DNA of 64,000 nt from Mucilaginibacter sp. Its GTDB lineage: Bacteria > Bacteroidota > Bacteroidia > Sphingobacteriales > Sphingobacteriaceae. The position numbers were made by a program, and so were the translations under genes. The notes beneath the pieces are model-generated. The model made no database searches and was not told the origin of the DNA. It saw nothing but the letters and a program-made list of their open reading frames with translations. This document shows positions 37,350 to 48,281 of the stretch, in pieces (positions within the stretch are counted from its first letter, which is position 1; every line of letters begins with the position of its first letter). The stretch spans positions 248,001 through 312,000 of the forward strand of contig NZ_JANYGQ010000022.1 of the NCBI RefSeq assembly GCF_025359345.1, written 5' to 3'.

Positions 37350-37477
37350 AGGTTTATATCGGCCTCACAAATTAAAATATGAAAATAAACAGATATACCC
37401 GTAAAACGAAAAGTAATTTAACGATAAGTTCAACAATAAGCCGCAGAAACTGTTTACCTTACCATTGTAAAGTCGAC

Positions 37478-38770
37478 ATGAAAAAACAAACCAAAACCCC
37501 AGCTAAAATAAAAAGCTTTTGGCGTATCCTGGGGCCGGGCCTTGTAACGGGCGCCGCCGACGATGACCCATCGGGCATTGCCACCTACTCGCAAACCGGT
37601 GCGCAATTTGGCTACGGGCAGCTGTGGACGGCTCTTTACATGCTGCCTTTAATGACAGCCGTTCAGGAAGCATGTGCGCGTATTGGCCTTGTAACGGGTA
37701 AAGGCATAACCACCATAGTTAAAGAACAATATAGCAAAGGTGTTTTATACGCGGTGGTATCGCTGGTTGTTGTAGCCAATGTTATCAATATCGGTGCTGA
37801 TTTAGGCGCAATGGCGTCGGCTGCGCAATTGCTGGTGCCGGTACCATTCGTGGTACTTACATTGCTATTTACAACAATTATATTGCTGCTTGAGGTATTT
37901 ACCAATTACAAAGTTTATTCAAAAATTTTGAAATGGCTGGCTTTAACCCTGCTTGCCTATCCAATAACCCTATTTATTGTACAACAACCATGGGTAACCA
38001 TCCTAAAGGCTTCGGTAATACCTCATGTCGAATTTTCTTTCGCTTTCTTTTTTATTATTACCGGTGTGCTAGGCACAACTATTTCGCCATACATGTTTTT
38101 TTGGGAAGCATCGCAGGAGGTTGAAGAAGATAAGGAACGGCACCTGATAAAAAACGGCAAGCCTGTGATCAGCAACATCAGCATAAAACGCATGCGTATT
38201 GACAATTCATTCGGGATGATATTTTCGGAATTTGCCACCTGGAGCATTATTGTGGTTGCGGCAACAGTACTTCACAATAGCGGCGTTCGGGACATTAAAA
38301 CAGCCGCGGATGCAGCAAAGGCTATAGAGCCGCTGGTGCATAGCTTTCCAAATGCAGGTTTATTGTCGAAACTTATTTTTTCTATTGGCATAATCGGCCT
38401 GGGAATGCTGGCTATCCCGGTGCTTTCCGGCTCAGCTGCATATTCGGTGGCCGGGGCCTTTAACTGGAAAGCCAGCCTGAATTTAAAATTTGGCAAAGCA
38501 AAAGGTTTTTATGTAATAATAATAGCAGCTACCCTTGTTGGTTTGATATTAAACTTCATCGGCATCAACCCTGTAAAAGGCTTGGTTTACGCGGCTGTAT
38601 TAAACGGCGTTGCTGCAGTGCCGTTATTATTTTTGGTGGTAAAAATATCCGGCGATGAAAAAATAATGGGCGAATTTAAAGGCGGCTGGCTTTCAAAAAC
38701 GGTTTTGTGGGTAACATTTGTGGCGATGGCGGCAGCGGCGGTAGCTATGTTTTATACAATATTGTCGTAG
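37478..38770 (+). CDS. Nramp-related metal transporter
   Basis: Start MKKQTKTPAKI; GPGLVTGAADDDPSGIATYSQTGAQFG TM1; about 11 TM helices. Confidence 0.88.
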   Translation: MKKQTKTPAKIKSFWRILGPGLVTGAADDDPSGIATYSQTGAQFGYGQLWTALYMLPLMTAVQEACARIGLVTGKGITTIVKEQYSKGVLYAVVSLVVVANVINIGADLGAMASAAQLLVPVPFVVLTLLFTTIILLLEVFTNYKVYSKILKWLALTLLAYPITLFIVQQPWVTILKASVIPHVEFSFAFFFIITGVLGTTISPYMFFWEASQEVEEDKERHLIKNGKPVISNISIKRMRIDNSFGMIFSEFATWSIIVVAATVLHNSGVRDIKTAADAAKAIEPLVHSFPNAGLLSKLIFSIGIIGLGMLAIPVLSGSAAYSVAGAFNWKASLNLKFGKAKGFYVIIIAATLVGLILNFIGINPVKGLVYAAVLNGVAAVPLLFLVVKISGDEKIMGEFKGGWLSKTVLWVTFVAMAAAAVAMFYTILS

Positions 38771-38880
38771 AGACGCGGCGGATTGCGTGCCCAAGTGCGA
38801 TCATTGTAAGCTTTGCCAGTTATCAGCAAAAATGTTGATTGCCTATCCGCAGTAGATGCAAAGCATTGCATCTCTACTAG
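38766..38880. repeat. Degenerate relative of the TAGAGACGCAA...TTGCGTCTC family
   Basis: cgtagagacgcggcggattgcgt ... gtagatgcaaagcattgcatctctac; internal palindrome AGATGCAA-AGCA-TTGCATCT at 38854-38873. Confidence 0.65.
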
Positions 38881-39695
38881 GGTTCATCAAACACAAAAAA
38901 TCCTGCGTCAATAAAACCCTTTTTCCATTCAGGCCATATTTTATCAAGATCGGCCCGCTTAAACTCAAACGCCTTTACCAGGTTATCTTTTGCGGCTTCG
39001 ACGCTATCGCCGCGCTGCATATTTTTCAGAAAATGGTATTGTGCCTCCCTGATAGTAAACAGCCCCAATTTATAGTTATGCCTTGTAACCGCACAATAGC
39101 TTTGTTCGGGGAATGGCAGTTCCGGCTCCCTGCCTTGTATCACCTCAAGATAATAGCTGCAAATTGGATATTGGTGGTGAAACAGGTGAAATACCGGCGC
39201 AAGCTTTAGCATTTCATCCGGGGTATCGTGCAAAATAACGGCAGGCTGCTCATCGGCATGCTCATCAAATATAATCGATAATGCATACTCAAAGCCTGCC
39301 AGCTCAATCATAAAGTCGGGCCAGTTTTCTTTTTGTTCACGTCCAGCATCAGGCCGGGTTTCCTGCAAAAACTGCGCGAATTTTTCTCCGAGCGTGTTTA
39401 AGGTATAACTTTCGGAAGGGTAAGTATCCAGGTATTGGTCGGCAAATAGTTCAAATAATTCGGGGCCAAGCGCATACGCCAAAGCATTGAACTGGCTTTG
39501 CATACACGACCGCAAACGGGCAATATAACTGTGCCGGTAAATATCAAGATGGTGCACGGCACTTAGTCGCTGCGAAGGGTTAACAATATCCTCAACAGCA
39601 GCGGGCAAAACGATATCCTGCATAGGCGCGTGATGTACCAACATGCCCTGCATCCAGTTTTGTAATTGCGTTAAGGAAAAATTATTTGAACTCAT
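38877..39695 (-). CDS. DUF2063 (HvfC/BufC-like) partner of MNIO enzyme
   Basis: SLTQLQNWMQGMLVHH, RLSAVHHLDIYRHSYIARLRSCMQSQFNALAYALGPELFELFADQYL; downstream of DUF692. Confidence 0.85.
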   Translation of the reverse strand: MSSNNFSLTQLQNWMQGMLVHHAPMQDIVLPAAVEDIVNPSQRLSAVHHLDIYRHSYIARLRSCMQSQFNALAYALGPELFELFADQYLDTYPSESYTLNTLGEKFAQFLQETRPDAGREQKENWPDFMIELAGFEYALSIIFDEHADEQPAVILHDTPDEMLKLAPVFHLFHHQYPICSYYLEVIQGREPELPFPEQSYCAVTRHNYKLGLFTIREAQYHFLKNMQRGDSVEAAKDNLVKAFEFKRADLDKIWPEWKKGFIDAGFFVFDEP

Positions 39696-39838: not shown

Positions 39839-40780
39839 TTACCAATTAACATTATTTACTAAAAAGTTAACAGGGTTTGAAACTACCTCGCTGTCAGCAG
39901 CAAGCTCTTCTGCATCAAAAACAAAACTGCCTATACTACTCATGTATTGTTTCGCTTTTAACAACTCGGCATGGTAAACATCAAATTCGGGGATATTCCC
40001 ATCCCACTCCAGTAGGGTGGCTACGCCGCCGGTGAGTTGCCAGGCCAGGGTAAAAAGCTTCCAAACATCGTGCGCCACCTGCCTGTCGTGCGTATCAATA
40101 ATGTGGGTGCCACAATGTTGATGCCCGGCAATGTGCATCTGTACAATCCTGTCGTGCGGTAATTGGCGGATATAATGTACCGGATCGAAATCGTTATTAA
40201 ATCCCGATACGTAAACATTATTGACATCGAGTAATAAGCCACAGCCCGTTTCTTCAGTCATATACCGCAAAAAGTCCCACTCGTTAATAGTCGACTGTTT
40301 AAAGGTTAAATAAGTACTGGGGTTTTCAAAAACTACAGGGCGTGCTAAAAAATCCTGCACCTGGTTTATCCTCGTGCAAATATGTTTTAATGATTCATCG
40401 TTTAAAACTACCGGGAGCAAATCGTGTGTGTTCAGGCTATTTACGCCAGTCCAGCACAGGTGATCACTTATCCAGAGTGGTTTTACCTCGCCGGCAAGCC
40501 GTTTCAATTTGGTAAGATATTCTTTGTTCAGCGGGTCGGTGCTGCCTATAGAAAGCGACACACCGTGCATTACAACAGGGTAACGTTCCGCTATTTGCCG
40601 CAATACATAGCGCGGCCTGCCACCCGAATCCATAAAATTTTCGGAAATAACCTCTAACCAGTCGACCGCCGGGTTAAGTTCCAATATGTGGTTAAAATGT
40701 TTGCTGCGCAGGCCAAGGCCAAGCCCGGGATCAGGCAGGCTTTTTATTATATTGATATAATTGTCCCCGGTTTTATTCAT
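39839..40780 (-). CDS. DUF692 / MNIO (multinuclear non-heme iron oxidative) enzyme, BufB/HvfB-like
   Basis: GLGLRSKHFNHIL, WLEVISENFM, VVMHGVSLSIGSTDPLN, WISDHLCWTG, VFENPSTY, LLLDVNNVYV, QMHIAGH, IDTHDR, LLEWDGNIPEF. Confidence 0.92.
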   Translation of the reverse strand: MNKTGDNYINIIKSLPDPGLGLGLRSKHFNHILELNPAVDWLEVISENFMDSGGRPRYVLRQIAERYPVVMHGVSLSIGSTDPLNKEYLTKLKRLAGEVKPLWISDHLCWTGVNSLNTHDLLPVVLNDESLKHICTRINQVQDFLARPVVFENPSTYLTFKQSTINEWDFLRYMTEETGCGLLLDVNNVYVSGFNNDFDPVHYIRQLPHDRIVQMHIAGHQHCGTHIIDTHDRQVAHDVWKLFTLAWQLTGGVATLLEWDGNIPEFDVYHAELLKAKQYMSSIGSFVFDAEELAADSEVVSNPVNFLVNNVNW

Positions 40781-40827: not shown

Positions 40828-40856
40828 ATAGCGATGGGTTTTAAACCCATCGCTAT
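40828..40856. promoter_or_regulatory. Hairpin ATAGCGATGGGTTT-T-AAACCCATCGCTAT between Cys-rich and MNIO genes
   Basis: Near-perfect palindrome, 14-bp arms around a single central T, in the 108-bp gap. Confidence 0.7.
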
Positions 40857-40888: not shown

Positions 40889-41458
40889 CTACTCCCTCTT
40901 CCCTTCACAAAGCCGCTTGGCATTATCTTCGGGGTCATTAAAACCAAACGAACATGACTTATCGCCGCTATTACCACACGAGTCATAGCCATCCAACCAC
41001 CTTACCAGCAACGCTTGGGGCGGACCGCACTTATACGGAGACGGGCCGACATTTCTGTTTGCTTTTTCCATACGTTCTTCAAACAATTTGCGGGCCTGCA
41101 ACCAAACGCTTTTACCTCGTTCGGGGCCAAGCGTACGAAAACGTTCCGCCTGTATAGGCACGGCACAACTGCCCTGCCACGCACACTCATTATTTCCCGG
41201 GTTGCTTTGCGCCTCTATATCGCCATAAAGTCCGCAGCCGCCCTGGCCCTTGCAATTGTTTAACGTTTGGCAGTTATGCCTTTCGGCAGTAGCACAATTT
41301 CCAGTGCCGGCACAGTTGTTTGTCCCCAGGCGGTCGTGTCCTTTACAGGCGTTTAGCCCCATACAAACGTGCAATTCAACTGGTACTTTTGCTGGTGTTG
41401 GGGTGGGTTTAGGGCCGCCGCACAAATTTCCTTCTGGTGAATATTTTATAGTAGCCAT
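40889..41458 (-). CDS. Cys-rich protein (14 Cys/189 aa), candidate MNIO substrate
   Basis: Five C-X5-C units (CMGLNAC, CAGTGNC, CQTLNNC, CKGQGGC, CAWQGSC); sits between ferritin-like and DUF692 genes. Confidence 0.8.
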   Translation of the reverse strand: MATIKYSPEGNLCGGPKPTPTPAKVPVELHVCMGLNACKGHDRLGTNNCAGTGNCATAERHNCQTLNNCKGQGGCGLYGDIEAQSNPGNNECAWQGSCAVPIQAERFRTLGPERGKSVWLQARKLFEERMEKANRNVGPSPYKCGPPQALLVRWLDGYDSCGNSGDKSCSFGFNDPEDNAKRLCEGKRE

Positions 41459-41482: not shown

Positions 41483-42859
41483 TTAAAAACTGTTAGTTGA
41501 ACTTACATTTGGAACGTCAGGCAAGTCATGTATACGCTGCCCCAGGTATTGTATTTTAGGGAAAACTGCCACAGCTTTGTTGAACAGTTCTATCATTTGC
41601 GCTTTAGGGCGCGACTTACCGTCAAATTTGTAGTCATTAAAAGTTGGCGCCACGACATATTCCTTGCCTTCATGTGTATATTTCAGCGACATGATATCGC
41701 CGCAAATAGAGTTAAGGATAAAAATCATGGATTTATGTATCCCGAACATAAATATCTCCCACTGGGTATTGCCGCTTTGGCGGTAACAGTCCTCAATCAT
41801 TACAAATATGTAAGTGTATACCGCGTTCAGCAAATTTGCCACCGGGACTACATTTGCGGGATAATGCTCAATTTTAGGATTATCTGCAACGTTTACAACA
41901 AAATAATCATACATATCAGTAACCCCTATATCCAGGTTTTTAAACCTGTCGTTTAGGCTATTGTAGGTACAGTATATCTGAACAAATTTTTCGAAGTGCG
42001 ATAGCTCCTTTTTTTCAGGATCATCAAAATCGCCCGGAACAAGGGCTGTGCAATTAACACGGTCACCGGGCTGTATTAAACCTTTATCGTCAAACCCCTC
42101 GCCCTGGTCAACAATACATTTTATCGCCTTTATTGCCGATGCTTTATCATGCACATGGCAAAGATCGCCGCTATCGTCCATGTTGGTAAAGTGCGGCCTG
42201 TGTTTTTTGTCGTAATAAACTGTATCGATGTTATTTTGCGCATAAAATGCCTTTCCTTCTATCAACTGCGGCCCATCCAGGTATTTTAAATCGTTTTTTT
42301 GAATACAATCTATAATCATCTGGTAAAACTTGCCGATGGTGGTATAGTTAATGGTTTTAAGCATACGCGGGTCAGGCAAATCGGTAGGGCTTTCAATTTT
42401 CAGGAAAGTTATCAGTTGGTCCTGCGAAAGCTTTGCCAGGTTGATAGGGAACGGAGGCTGATGGCCCGCAAGTGTTGCCGGAAACACCGGCGATTTGCCA
42501 ACCAGGTCCGGCATGCCGGCAAGGGCTTGTTTTAAATTTGACGACAGTGCCATGTGCAGCATCTCCTCTATCGCAACGCTCATGATTAATGCACCCGCTT
42601 TGTTGGCGAATACCACAAGTTCGGCCGATAGGTCTATGGCCTCCTCCTCTGCCTCGATAGGCGGCCTGCCTTTGGCTACCAGCTTTTCTATTATCGACGT
42701 TTTAATAGCTTCCTGGTCAGGAGATCGATTAATGGAATAATAGGTATAAAGGTAAGTGGGGATGGTGGCAATTTCTATTTCAATTGCTTGCTGAATAGCT
42801 TCGCCGAGGTTGTCGGGGGTCACCGGGTCTGCTCCTTTTGCAAAAAAGTCTTGTGTCAT
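41483..42859 (-). CDS. Ferritin-like domain protein, VioB/RebD-type
   Basis: NLGEAIQQAIEIEIATIPTYLYTYYSI, AIEEMLHMALSSNLKQALAG, GKFYQMIIDCI. Confidence 0.8.
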   Translation of the reverse strand: MTQDFFAKGADPVTPDNLGEAIQQAIEIEIATIPTYLYTYYSINRSPDQEAIKTSIIEKLVAKGRPPIEAEEEAIDLSAELVVFANKAGALIMSVAIEEMLHMALSSNLKQALAGMPDLVGKSPVFPATLAGHQPPFPINLAKLSQDQLITFLKIESPTDLPDPRMLKTINYTTIGKFYQMIIDCIQKNDLKYLDGPQLIEGKAFYAQNNIDTVYYDKKHRPHFTNMDDSGDLCHVHDKASAIKAIKCIVDQGEGFDDKGLIQPGDRVNCTALVPGDFDDPEKKELSHFEKFVQIYCTYNSLNDRFKNLDIGVTDMYDYFVVNVADNPKIEHYPANVVPVANLLNAVYTYIFVMIEDCYRQSGNTQWEIFMFGIHKSMIFILNSICGDIMSLKYTHEGKEYVVAPTFNDYKFDGKSRPKAQMIELFNKAVAVFPKIQYLGQRIHDLPDVPNVSSTNSF

Positions 42860-44211: not shown

Positions 44212-45975
44212 ATGGCTAAGGAAAGTAAAAAAAATAAAAAAGCAGCCGATTATCCGCAGATTGCAAAGACGCCAACGGGTATTACCGGTCTGGATGAAAT
44301 AACCGGCGGCGGCATCCCTACAGGGCGCCCAACGTTAATATGTGGTGAAGCGGGTTGCGGCAAAACATTGGTTTCGCTGGAATTTATCGTAAGGGGCGCA
44401 ATTGAGTTCAATGAGCCCGGTGTATTTATGGCTTTCGAGGAGAAAGCTGAAGAACTGGCCATGAATGTAGGCTCTCTGGGCTTTAACCTGGAGCAACTGC
44501 AAAAAGATAAAAAGCTAAAAATCGATTACGTACACATCGATCGCAGTGAGATTGAAGAGACCGGCGAGTACGACCTCGACGGCCTTTTTATCCGCTTGGG
44601 CTATGCCATCGACACTATCGGTGCTAAACGCGTAGTACTTGACACCATTGAGAACCTTTTTGCAGGGCTCTCTAACCAGGGCATACTTCGCGCCGAGTTG
44701 CGGAGGCTGTTCCAGTGGCTTAAAGAAAAAGGCGTTACAGCAATAATAACCGGCGAACGTGGTGAGGGACCATCACTAACCCGCCAGGGGCTGGAAGAAT
44801 ACGTGTCGGATTGCGTGATACTGCTCGACCATAGGGTTATTAACCAGATATCAACCCGCCGTTTACGTATCGTAAAATATCGCGGCTCGGTACATGGTAC
44901 GAATGAGTATCCATTTTTAATTGATGAGGACGGCATTTCGGTATTGCCGGTAACTTCCTTACGTCTCGAAAAGGAAGTTTCATCCGAGAGAGTGTCATCA
45001 GGCATCCCTTCGCTCGATAAAATGCTGGGCGGTAAAGGCTTTTTTAAAGGCGGCAGCGTATTAGTTTCGGGCACCGCCGGTACCGGAAAAACCAGCATAG
45101 CGGCCTGCTTTGCCAACGAAATTTGCAACCAAAAACAACGCTGCCTTTATTTTGCTTTCGAGGAATCACCAAGACAGATTATCCGCAATATGCACTCTAT
45201 CAGCATGGACCTGCAAAAGCACGTCGATAATGGCCTGTTGCAATTTATGGCGTCGCGCCCTACTTTGCACGGCCTGGAGCAACATCTTGTGGCTATGCAC
45301 AAACTGATAAAGCGTTTTAAACCGCAGGCGGTTGTGCTCGACCCGATTACCAACCTGATTACAGTTGGTTCGGTTAGCGAGGTTAAAGCAATGCTAATAA
45401 GACTGATTGATTTTTTGCAGGAAGAGCAGATAACTGTAATGTTTACCGCCCTCACCCTTAACACCGTAGTTACCGAACAAACGGACGAAGGTGTGTCATC
45501 ATTAGTTGATGCCTGGATTTTGGTGCGGGATATAGAATTTAATGGCGAGCGTAACCGTGGCATGTACATTATGAAATCGCGGGGTATGAAACACTCCAAC
45601 CAGGTGCGTGAGTTCATTATAACCGACCGCGGTATTGATTTAGTGGAGGTTTATTTAGGGCCTGATGGCGTGCTTACCGGTTCGGCCCGCGAGGCGCAAA
45701 AATTGCAGGAGCAAACCGGCGAAGTGTTGCGTAGCCACGCCATAAGTGTGAAAGACCGTGAAGTGCTGCGTAAACGTAAAGTGCTCGAAGCTAAAATTGC
45801 TGGTTTGCAAAGCGAATTTGAATCAGCAGAGGAAGAACTCAACAAAATTTATATAGAAGAAGAACTGGTAAAAAAAGTGGCCGAAGGCAACCGCCAGGAA
45901 ATGTTAAAATTGCGCCGGGGCGACCAGGGAGGCAACGACAGAAAGGTAAAAAGTAATGAAAACAAAAGAATATAA
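44212..45975 (+). CDS. kaiC: KaiC-family double-domain ATPase (circadian clock protein KaiC homolog)
   Basis: Two RecA/KaiC domains: [11 protein letters not shown] + AFEEKAEE, and [12 protein letters not shown] + AFEESPRQ; phospho-region [11 protein letters not shown]-terminal [21 protein letters not shown]. Confidence 0.96.
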
Positions 45976-46252
45976 GTACGAGTTAAGGTTATACATAGCC
46001 GGTAAAACTGCAAAATCGCAGTTGGCGCTGGCAAACCTGAATAAATATTGTGAGGAGTATTTGGAGGGCGAATACAAAATTGAAGTGATTGATTTATTGA
46101 TTAAACCACAGCTTGCGGAGGGCGACCAAATTTTTGCGGTACCCACGCTGGTACGTAAGGTACCGGAACCCATTCGTAAAGTTATCGGCGACTTATCGAA
46201 CGAAGAAAAAGTGCTGGTTGGTTTAAATATACGCCCTGCTAACAAAAAATAA
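45956..46252 (+). CDS. kaiB: KaiB-family protein
   Basis: [68 protein letters not shown]. Confidence 0.96.
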
Positions 46253-46254
46253 TA

Positions 46255-46581
46255 ATGACGGAGCAACCACAACAACCGCCTGCAAGTATTGATGATTTAG
46301 AAACCGGTGATTTATATCGCTTACGATTATTTGTAACTGGGGCAACTCCAAATTCAACAAGGGCAATATCAAACTTAAAAGAGCTTTGTGAAACCCACCT
46401 CGCAAACAAGTACGAGTTGGAGATAGTGGATGTTTACCAGCAGCCACTAATCGCCATCAGCGAGCAGTTAATTGCACTCCCCATGCTTGTGAAACTATCA
46501 CCATTGCCTCAGCGCAGGTTAATTGGCGATATGTCGGATACCGGCAAAGTGCTTAGGGGGTTAGGCTTGCCGGCTATGTAA
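46255..46581 (+). CDS. Second, divergent KaiB-like protein
   Basis: YRLRLFVTGATPNSTRAISNLKELCETHLANKYELEIVDVYQQPLIAISEQLIALPMLVKLSPLPQRRLIGDMSDTGKVLRGLGL. Confidence 0.93.
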   Translation: MTEQPQQPPASIDDLETGDLYRLRLFVTGATPNSTRAISNLKELCETHLANKYELEIVDVYQQPLIAISEQLIALPMLVKLSPLPQRRLIGDMSDTGKVLRGLGLPAM

Positions 46582-46589
46582 TTTTTTCT

Positions 46590-48281
46590 ATGGACCAATT
46601 GAATAACACATATAGTGTGCTTCTAAAAGAGAACGAAGAGCTTAAAATACAGCTGGAGGAGGCAAACGATACCATCGACGCTATCCGTACCGGCCAGGTT
46701 GATGCGCTTATAGTTAATGACGGCGACGGGCATCAGCTGTATACATTAAAAACAGCCGACCAAACCTACCGTGTATTTATCGAGAAGATGAATGAGGGCG
46801 CGGTTACCATAAACCGCCAAGGCCTTATTTTGTATAGCAACTCGCGATTTGCCAGTATGGTGGGTATGCCGCTCGAGAGAACTATAGGCCTTTTATTTGA
46901 AACATTTATAGCAGATCAATCGCGGGATGCCTTTGAGGATGTAATAGCAAATGCGTGGGAAGAGGATTGTAAAGAGGAATTGCTTTTAAAAAACACAGAG
47001 GGCCACTATGTGCCCTGCCTGCTATCGTGCAATACGCTCGAATTGGATGAGGGTGTTGCCTTAAGCTTAATACTAACAGACTTATCGATACTTAAAGAAG
47101 CTGAAAATCAGCTCAAAATTAAAAACCTGCAGCTTGCCGCTGCCCGTTTAGCCACCGAAAAGCTGAACAATGAATTAGAAGATACGGTAAAGGAACGTAC
47201 CAACGAGCTTTTTTTAAGCCGCGAGCACTTTAAATACCTGGCCAACAACATTCCGCAAATGACATGGACCAACCTGCCCGATGGAGAGGTTGATTATTAT
47301 AACCAGCAATGGTATGATTATACCGGGCTTGACCAGCAAGACACGAAAAAATGGGGCTGGCGCAAGGTTTTACACCCAGACGACCTGCAAGCTACTATGG
47401 ACAGGTTTGCTGAATCGTTAAAAACGGGTGAAATATTTGAGATTGAAAATCGCTACAAGCGCGGTTATGATGGCGCCTATCGCTGGCATTTAAACCGTGC
47501 TATTCCACTACGTGACGAAAAAAACGAAATAGTTTTCTGGGTGGGCACAGCAACTGATATTGAGGACCAGAAAAAAGAAATGGAGCGGAAAGATGAATTT
47601 ATAGGTATTGCCAGCCATGAATTGAAAACCCCGCTTACCAGCCTGAAAGGTTATTTACAGCTGATAGCATCCTATAAGCGCGACGAGTTGCCGTCAGTGG
47701 TAAAACAGTATATAGAAAAAGCCAATACATCATTAAACAAACTGCAACGACTTATAAACGACTTGCTGGACGTGAGCAAAATACAAGCCGGCAAACTTGA
47801 ATATGCGTTTACAAAGTTCAATATAACCGACCTGATAAAGACGTGTATTGAAAACGCTGAGCACATTCATCCCGATAACAATTTCATTATCCGCGATGGC
47901 AAGGATTATACCGTAAACGGAAACCCCGAACGCCTTGAGCAGGTGGTAATGAACCTTATAAACAATGCTGTAAAATACTCGCCTCAAAATAAGGATGTAA
48001 TCATACATATTACTGACCACGCCGATTGTGTGCGTGTTTCCGTTACTGATTTTGGAATTGGCCTTTCTGCCGAACAGCAGGAACGCATATTTGAGCGCTT
48101 CTATCGCGTTGAGGATAAAAAGTACACCACCAGCGGCCTGGGCATGGGCCTTTATATCTCTGCTGAAATTATCAGCTATCACAATGGCAGCATTGGTGTA
48201 GAAAGCGAGGTCGGCAAAGGCTCGACGTTTTATTTTGGATTACCGTTAATTAGAGATTATAGGCTGGAGACCAGAGATTAG
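46590..48281 (+). CDS. PAS-domain sensor histidine kinase, terminal gene of kai operon
   Basis: Coiled coil LLKENEELKIQLEEANDTIDAIRTGQVDALIV, PAS/PAC, FIGIASHELKTPLTSLKGYLQLI, NLINNAVKYSP, GLGMGLYISAEII. Confidence 0.94.
   Translation: MDQLNNTYSVLLKENEELKIQLEEANDTIDAIRTGQVDALIVNDGDGHQLYTLKTADQTYRVFIEKMNEGAVTINRQGLILYSNSRFASMVGMPLERTIGLLFETFIADQSRDAFEDVIANAWEEDCKEELLLKNTEGHYVPCLLSCNTLELDEGVALSLILTDLSILKEAENQLKIKNLQLAAARLATEKLNNELEDTVKERTNELFLSREHFKYLANNIPQMTWTNLPDGEVDYYNQQWYDYTGLDQQDTKKWGWRKVLHPDDLQATMDRFAESLKTGEIFEIENRYKRGYDGAYRWHLNRAIPLRDEKNEIVFWVGTATDIEDQKKEMERKDEFIGIASHELKTPLTSLKGYLQLIASYKRDELPSVVKQYIEKANTSLNKLQRLINDLLDVSKIQAGKLEYAFTKFNITDLIKTCIENAEHIHPDNNFIIRDGKDYTVNGNPERLEQVVMNLINNAVKYSPQNKDVIIHITDHADCVRVSVTDFGIGLSAEQQERIFERFYRVEDKKYTTSGLGMGLYISAEIISYHNGSIGVESEVGKGSTFYFGLPLIRDYRLETRD

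Follow-up and report, generated by a model that had tools for sequence, protein, structure and literature searches.

Gene content of the locus

Four adjoining genes on the minus strand of the window (the whole stretch of 64,000 nucleotides of Mucilaginibacter sp. DNA analysed here) encode, in this order, a ferritin-like protein, a Cys-rich protein, an MNIO and a DUF2063 partner. The ferritin-like protein (41483..42859; 458 aa) matched PF12902 with an E-value of 4.6e-38 and 131.7 bits, against a gathering cut-off of 22.3. The Cys-rich protein, which is the second gene and the predicted MNIO substrate (40889..41458), has an ATG start, 189 aa and 14 Cys. The MNIO, an iron enzyme and the predicted maturase (39839..40780), matched PF05114 (1e-105) and the NCBIfam model MNIO_BufB (354.6 bits; cut-off 310), and the DUF2063 partner, of PME-type 1 (38877..39695), matched PF09836 (59.6 bits; cut-off 27.2). 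The adjoining ferritin-like gene, which was absent from the original prediction, is the most unusual part of the cluster.

A scan of species genomes gave 57 loci with relatives, in Bacteroidota, Pseudomonadota, Pyrinomonadaceae and Actinomycetota, and all four genes were found together in 56 of them: 48 have the order of the window, seven (all actinomycete) have the order Cys-MNIO-DUF2063-ferritin, and one has a ferritin-Cys fusion. The ferritin-like gene is present in every intact locus over the four phyla; it is relocated in some of them and lost from none. The one exception, in Kitasatospora (L055:5926-6501), in which the Cys core runs in frame into the C-terminal part of the MNIO, looks like a deletion (an apparent deletion remnant or an assembly join). 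Beyond the four, no further gene was common across the homologue loci, no alternative candidate for a substrate gene was found in the cluster, and no neighbouring gene points to copper. The occurrence of the system is patchy: strong matches were found in few of the 396 Bacteroidota, 297 Actinomycetota and 299 Pseudomonadota genomes, and in a set of relatives they were found in 4 of 60 genomes, all four in Mucilaginibacter, the window's genus.

Two other features near the cluster were considered and rejected as parts of it. An Nramp-type transporter gene (37379-38770, plus strand), convergent with the operon, is conserved beside it in only eight loci, all of them from Mucilaginibacter. A 29-bp near-perfect palindrome, ATAGCGATGGGTTTTAAACCCATCGCTAT (40828-40856), lies in the gap between the Cys gene and the MNIO gene; its 21-bp core recurs at 10 genomic sites (at most two mismatches), and the palindrome is probably a dispersed palindromic repeat. 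Because it is such a repeat and, among the homologue gaps examined, occurs only in that of the near-identical L001, we regard it neither as a regulatory element nor as part of the system. Elsewhere in the window (44212-48281, plus strand), Pfam matches identified a gene for a KaiC-like ATPase, then two for KaiB-domain proteins and one for a histidine kinase with a PAS domain; these make up a kaiC-kaiB-kaiB-kinase cluster, here in a genome of the Bacteroidota.

Cysteine pattern of the Cys-rich protein

Cys residues occur at positions 13, 32, 38, 49, 55, 63, 69, 75, 92, 98, 144, 161, 169 and 184, and form exactly five C-x5-C pairs (32-38, 49-55, 63-69, 69-75 and 92-98, with C69 common to two pairs); at each of the other spacings between 1 and 15, no more than two pairs were counted. 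Sequences shuffled at constant composition reached at least five C-x5-C pairs with p = 0.001, and at least five pairs at any single spacing with p = 0.013. Conservation is the stronger evidence: in the core set (C32, C38, C49, C55, C63, C69, C75, C92 and C98), eight Cys are invariant across 58 homologues and C49, missing from the actinomycete homologues, is present in 50 of the 58, so that the regularity is real and conserved. Cys positions, shuffles and homologues thus all confirm the five pairs described in the original prediction, which had set conservation of the spacing beforehand as its check. The further Cys that it had named also exist, although they are less conserved than the core (C13 in 38, C144 in 22, C161 in 50, C169 in 50 and C184 in 27 of the 58 sequences).

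The BufA2-like core, residues 32-98, corresponds to 41165..41365 on the minus strand (coordinates derived from the residue numbers); most of its Cys do not directly precede Lys, and it is followed by a conserved non-Cys region (W119, A122 and R123). The family-wide total is 8-22 Cys per protein, and the Kordia and Aquimarina homologues (L024, L027, L028 and L029) carry N-terminal SNGCGSS-like repeats that bring their totals to 20-22. The AlphaFold model is poor (pLDDT 63.6) and shows no metal-site geometry; its two PDB matches were discarded as noise, the model being too weak for a fold search. A Pfam match to Raffinose_syn (E = 0.093) was attributed to chance, and PHROGs gave no match.

The MNIO and its DUF2063 partner

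Only the BufB cut-off was exceeded by the window MNIO, which stayed under those for HvfB (249.8 against 360), ApyH, MbnB and ChrH, and the BufB model was matched by all 40 of the 40 MNIOs. The enzyme keeps the conserved residues that align with solved MNIOs such as 3bww, and its invariant D260 corresponds by alignment to FonB D249, the proposed catalytic base (PMC13097082). The BufB2 specificity Asp is replaced by Gly, Ser, Asn or Ala in most MNIOs of the homologue loci. No second PF05114 match was found in the window's genome. The DUF2063 signature was recognized in 39 of 39 partners, and ten scored singly gave 56-73 bits against the cut-off of 27.2. In related systems, an MNIO and its DUF2063 partner remove four hydrogens per Cys to give a copper-binding 5-thiooxazole (PMC12452194, PMC13097082, PMC13419390). 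An adjoining BufB-type MNIO with an intact catalytic Asp, together with a DUF2063 partner, fits the earlier proposal that the regular Cys are repeated modification sites or a metal-binding array.

In an MNIO tree, the maturases of the ferritin-Cys clusters grouped together, but a common origin was weakly supported (70/13) and is therefore not claimed. In a second tree, three groups (type B, actinomycete and main type A) each had support of at least 100/97.

Kinship with bufferins and other MNIO precursors

The BufA2 HMM (NF050166) was matched by all 57 aligned members (best E-value, 5.4e-7), the window protein itself scoring 21.9 bits, under the curated cut-off of 60. An hhalign comparison with eight true BufA2 sequences gave 94% and E = 1.4e-7 over residues 22-73, and equivalents of the 6-Cys BufA2 core are present, plus one inserted Cys. 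By these profile alignments, the Cys core is distantly related to BufA2, and its nearest kin are therefore not the EGKCG (HvfA) group. The original prediction had noted a likeness to the EGKCG repeats of HvfA/BufA-type precursors short of a match: the mismatch stands, whereas HvfA as nearest kin does not, the closest precursor being BufA2. The search for a match to an unrelated Cys-rich family, which could have told against the prediction, likewise returned BufA2 as the relative.

The aligned C-x5-C core is common to BufA2/Buf2 (Buf_6/12Cys) and the window protein (HVCMGLNACKGH...CATAERHNCQTLNNCKGQGGC, compared with HACKGMNECKGKGGCKTADNSCKGKNACKGKGGC in L075, a Bacteroidota BufA2-like sequence), and by eye the parallel is HVC-MGLNA-C-KGH[DRLGTNNCAGT]GNC-ATAERHN-C-QTLNN-C-KGQGG-C in the window to HAC-KGMNE-C-KGKGG-C-KTADNS-C-KGKNA-C-KGKGG-C in L075. 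The two also share the gene order precursor-MNIO-DUF2063. However, the window protein has the C49 insertion, an extra C92-C98 unit and the conserved C-terminal region, and its family always has the ferritin-like gene. Moreover, BufA2 is exported, whereas the segment before the core of the window protein has no hydrophobic stretch that could represent a Sec signal peptide (peak hydropathy 0.18, against 1.96-2.31 in BufA2); judged by hydropathy, the protein lacks a signal peptide and is predicted to be cytoplasmic.

NACKG, one of the common captophorin 5-mers tested in PMC13097082, is recognized in the family with N36, C38 and K39 invariant, and MNIO and DUF2063 genes adjoin the Cys gene in all intact loci, as expected of a captophorin precursor. 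The Buf_EGKCG/oxazolin (HvfA) precursors and fontiphorin (FonA) are likewise Cys-rich MNIO/PME1 substrates, but the window protein has no EGKCG repeats, and its MNIO reads E-W-D-G where a Phe follows the catalytic Asp in the EGKCG group (FonB F250). Table 2 of PMC12452194 describes adjamnio-I precursors as lacking a signal peptide, having 122-293 aa and 8-21 Cys, and lying directly before an MNIO. Compared with this published description, the window protein (189 aa, 14 Cys, no signal peptide, before the MNIO) is similar; however, the major adjamnio-I organisation given there is PME-type 2, with no ferritin gene mentioned in that account, whereas every partner tested here bears the DUF2063 signature. 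Adjamnio-I, an unexplained cluster in that paper, may overlap the window family; its authors may have come across the precursor but not its link to ferritin. PME-type 2 partners have been reported to go with precursors that lack a signal peptide; the present cluster, whose partner is of PME-type 1, does not follow this correlation.

The ferritin-like protein and its fusions

The putative diiron ligands of the ferritin-like protein (E29, E99, H102, E254, E285 and H288) are each conserved in 55 or all of the 56 homologues, and we take this Glu/ExxH set to be a diiron carboxylate pattern. AlphaFold gave a confident helical model (pLDDT 88.1, pTM 0.90) that matches the fold of 3hl1 (Foldseek E = 6.6e-5; HMM 9e-20). 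The PF12902 proteins 3hl1 (CC_0557) and VioB have conserved E, ExxH and GEG motifs in common with it, and the fold is shared with 3hl1; in the literature searched, no account was found that links either of them with an MNIO or with a Cys-rich domain.

Single-ORF ferritin-Cys fusions exist in Pleionea (L047) and in a Pseudomonadota genome, G899 (L108), and eight further fusion loci, of a divergent family designated type B, were found: six in Mucilaginibacter genomes (L103, L104, L116, L117, L119 and L121), one in a Pseudomonadota genome (L109) and one on Pseudoalteromonas plasmids (L124). An MNIO lies next door in each of the type B loci, and in every fusion the ferritin-like part is N-terminal and the Cys domain C-terminal. 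The type B ORF, about 700-790 aa where complete (L116, L117, L119 and L121 show only its C-terminal part), is followed by the MNIO and, wherever the locus extends far enough, by a DUF2063-type gene; the proteins have an RLVFPPST-like end, and their ferritin domains have no strict equivalent of E285. By profile comparison, type A and type B are homologous in both halves (Cys domains, 97.9%, 6e-13; ferritin parts, 99.2%, 1e-19), and a type B profile search recovers the window Cys-rich protein. Among the sampled Mucilaginibacter genomes, a ferritin-Cys pair or fusion adjoins an MNIO in each that encodes this enzyme, and the only other MNIO in that sample (L123) is partial and divergent. A plasmid search found no type A matches, and type B on two Pseudoalteromonas plasmids; in Pseudoalteromonas sp. 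NC201 (L124:5893-10110), the type B fusion, MNIO and DUF2063-like gene lie where the plasmid table lists no features.

Proposed function of the cluster

We consider the Cys-rich protein probably to be a protein-sized, cytoplasmic MNIO/DUF2063 substrate that carries thiooxazole metal sites and works with a ferritin-like oxidase. Acting in the cytoplasm, the MNIO and its DUF2063 partner would oxidise a subset of the core Cys, each with the loss of four hydrogens, and the product, by analogy with bufferins and fontiphorin, would be 5-thiooxazole thiolates. The soft metal bound by the modified domain would most likely be copper, and the domain would belong permanently to the putative diiron ferritin-like protein, as one of its subunits or domains. 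This is the best reading because of the BufA2 homology, the conserved C-x5-C core, the four-gene linkage, the intact MNIO and ferritin-like residues, the lack of a hydrophobic signal segment and the repeated fusion. The fusions prove association, not common function.

In the main rival reading, which we consider unlikely, maturation involves a second enzyme: the Cys-rich substrate would be oxidised further at the diiron centre of the ferritin-like protein, and the fusions would be of the enzyme-substrate type. The full putative ligand set of the split family, the presence of the oxidase VioB in PF12902 (together with weak TIGR04492 matches) and the constant N-terminal position of the enzyme before the Cys domain would all suit it. 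Borosin (OphMA) is such an enzyme-substrate fusion, from which a small C-terminal core is cut out. Unlike that core, however, the Cys domain runs on into the conserved non-Cys region and looks like a lasting protein, and other MNIO precursors need no ferritin-like enzyme. It is also rather improbable that the protein is a cytoplasmic bufferin, a copper sponge encoded in the same operon as an independent metal or oxidative-stress protein of ferritin type: the BufA2 homology and BufB-type maturase agree with this, but BufA2 itself is exported, and the ferritin gene accompanies all intact loci over four phyla and is repeatedly fused. Since the Cys domain goes with the ferritin-like protein in every intact locus, and in some is part of the same chain, a lasting metal-site subunit is favoured over a free metal sponge. 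The many Cys, the poor structural model and the lack of a solved relative would also be compatible with an unmodified, disulfide- or zinc-stabilised accessory protein next to an MNIO that acts on something else, but the strict MNIO and DUF2063 linkage, the BufA2 homology and the absence of another substrate gene candidate make this very improbable.

Returning to the thiooxazole-bearing subunit, we propose more tentatively, as a possibility short of an even chance, that the thiooxazole domain is a permanent part of a ferritin-like diiron oxidoreductase, so that the product of the MNIO would be a metallocofactor derived from a protein rather than a metallophore peptide. A full-text search of the open-licence literature found no paper joining MNIO, RiPP and ferritin; the sole paper containing both DUF692 and ferritin concerned Caulobacter copper transcriptomics, and the word 'ferritin' is absent from the main text of the MNIO landscape paper (PMC12452194). 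The known MNIO substrates are mostly small copper-binding peptides, many of them exported, and PMC12452194 raises the question of whether functional proteins, too, are modified by MNIOs. With the present cluster, this question can be put to a well-defined test in several bacteria that are in culture, on a predicted cytoplasmic protein substrate that is tied, or even fused, to a diiron-type protein. If the proposal is true, MNIO chemistry may be built into an enzyme and not into a small secreted copper trap.
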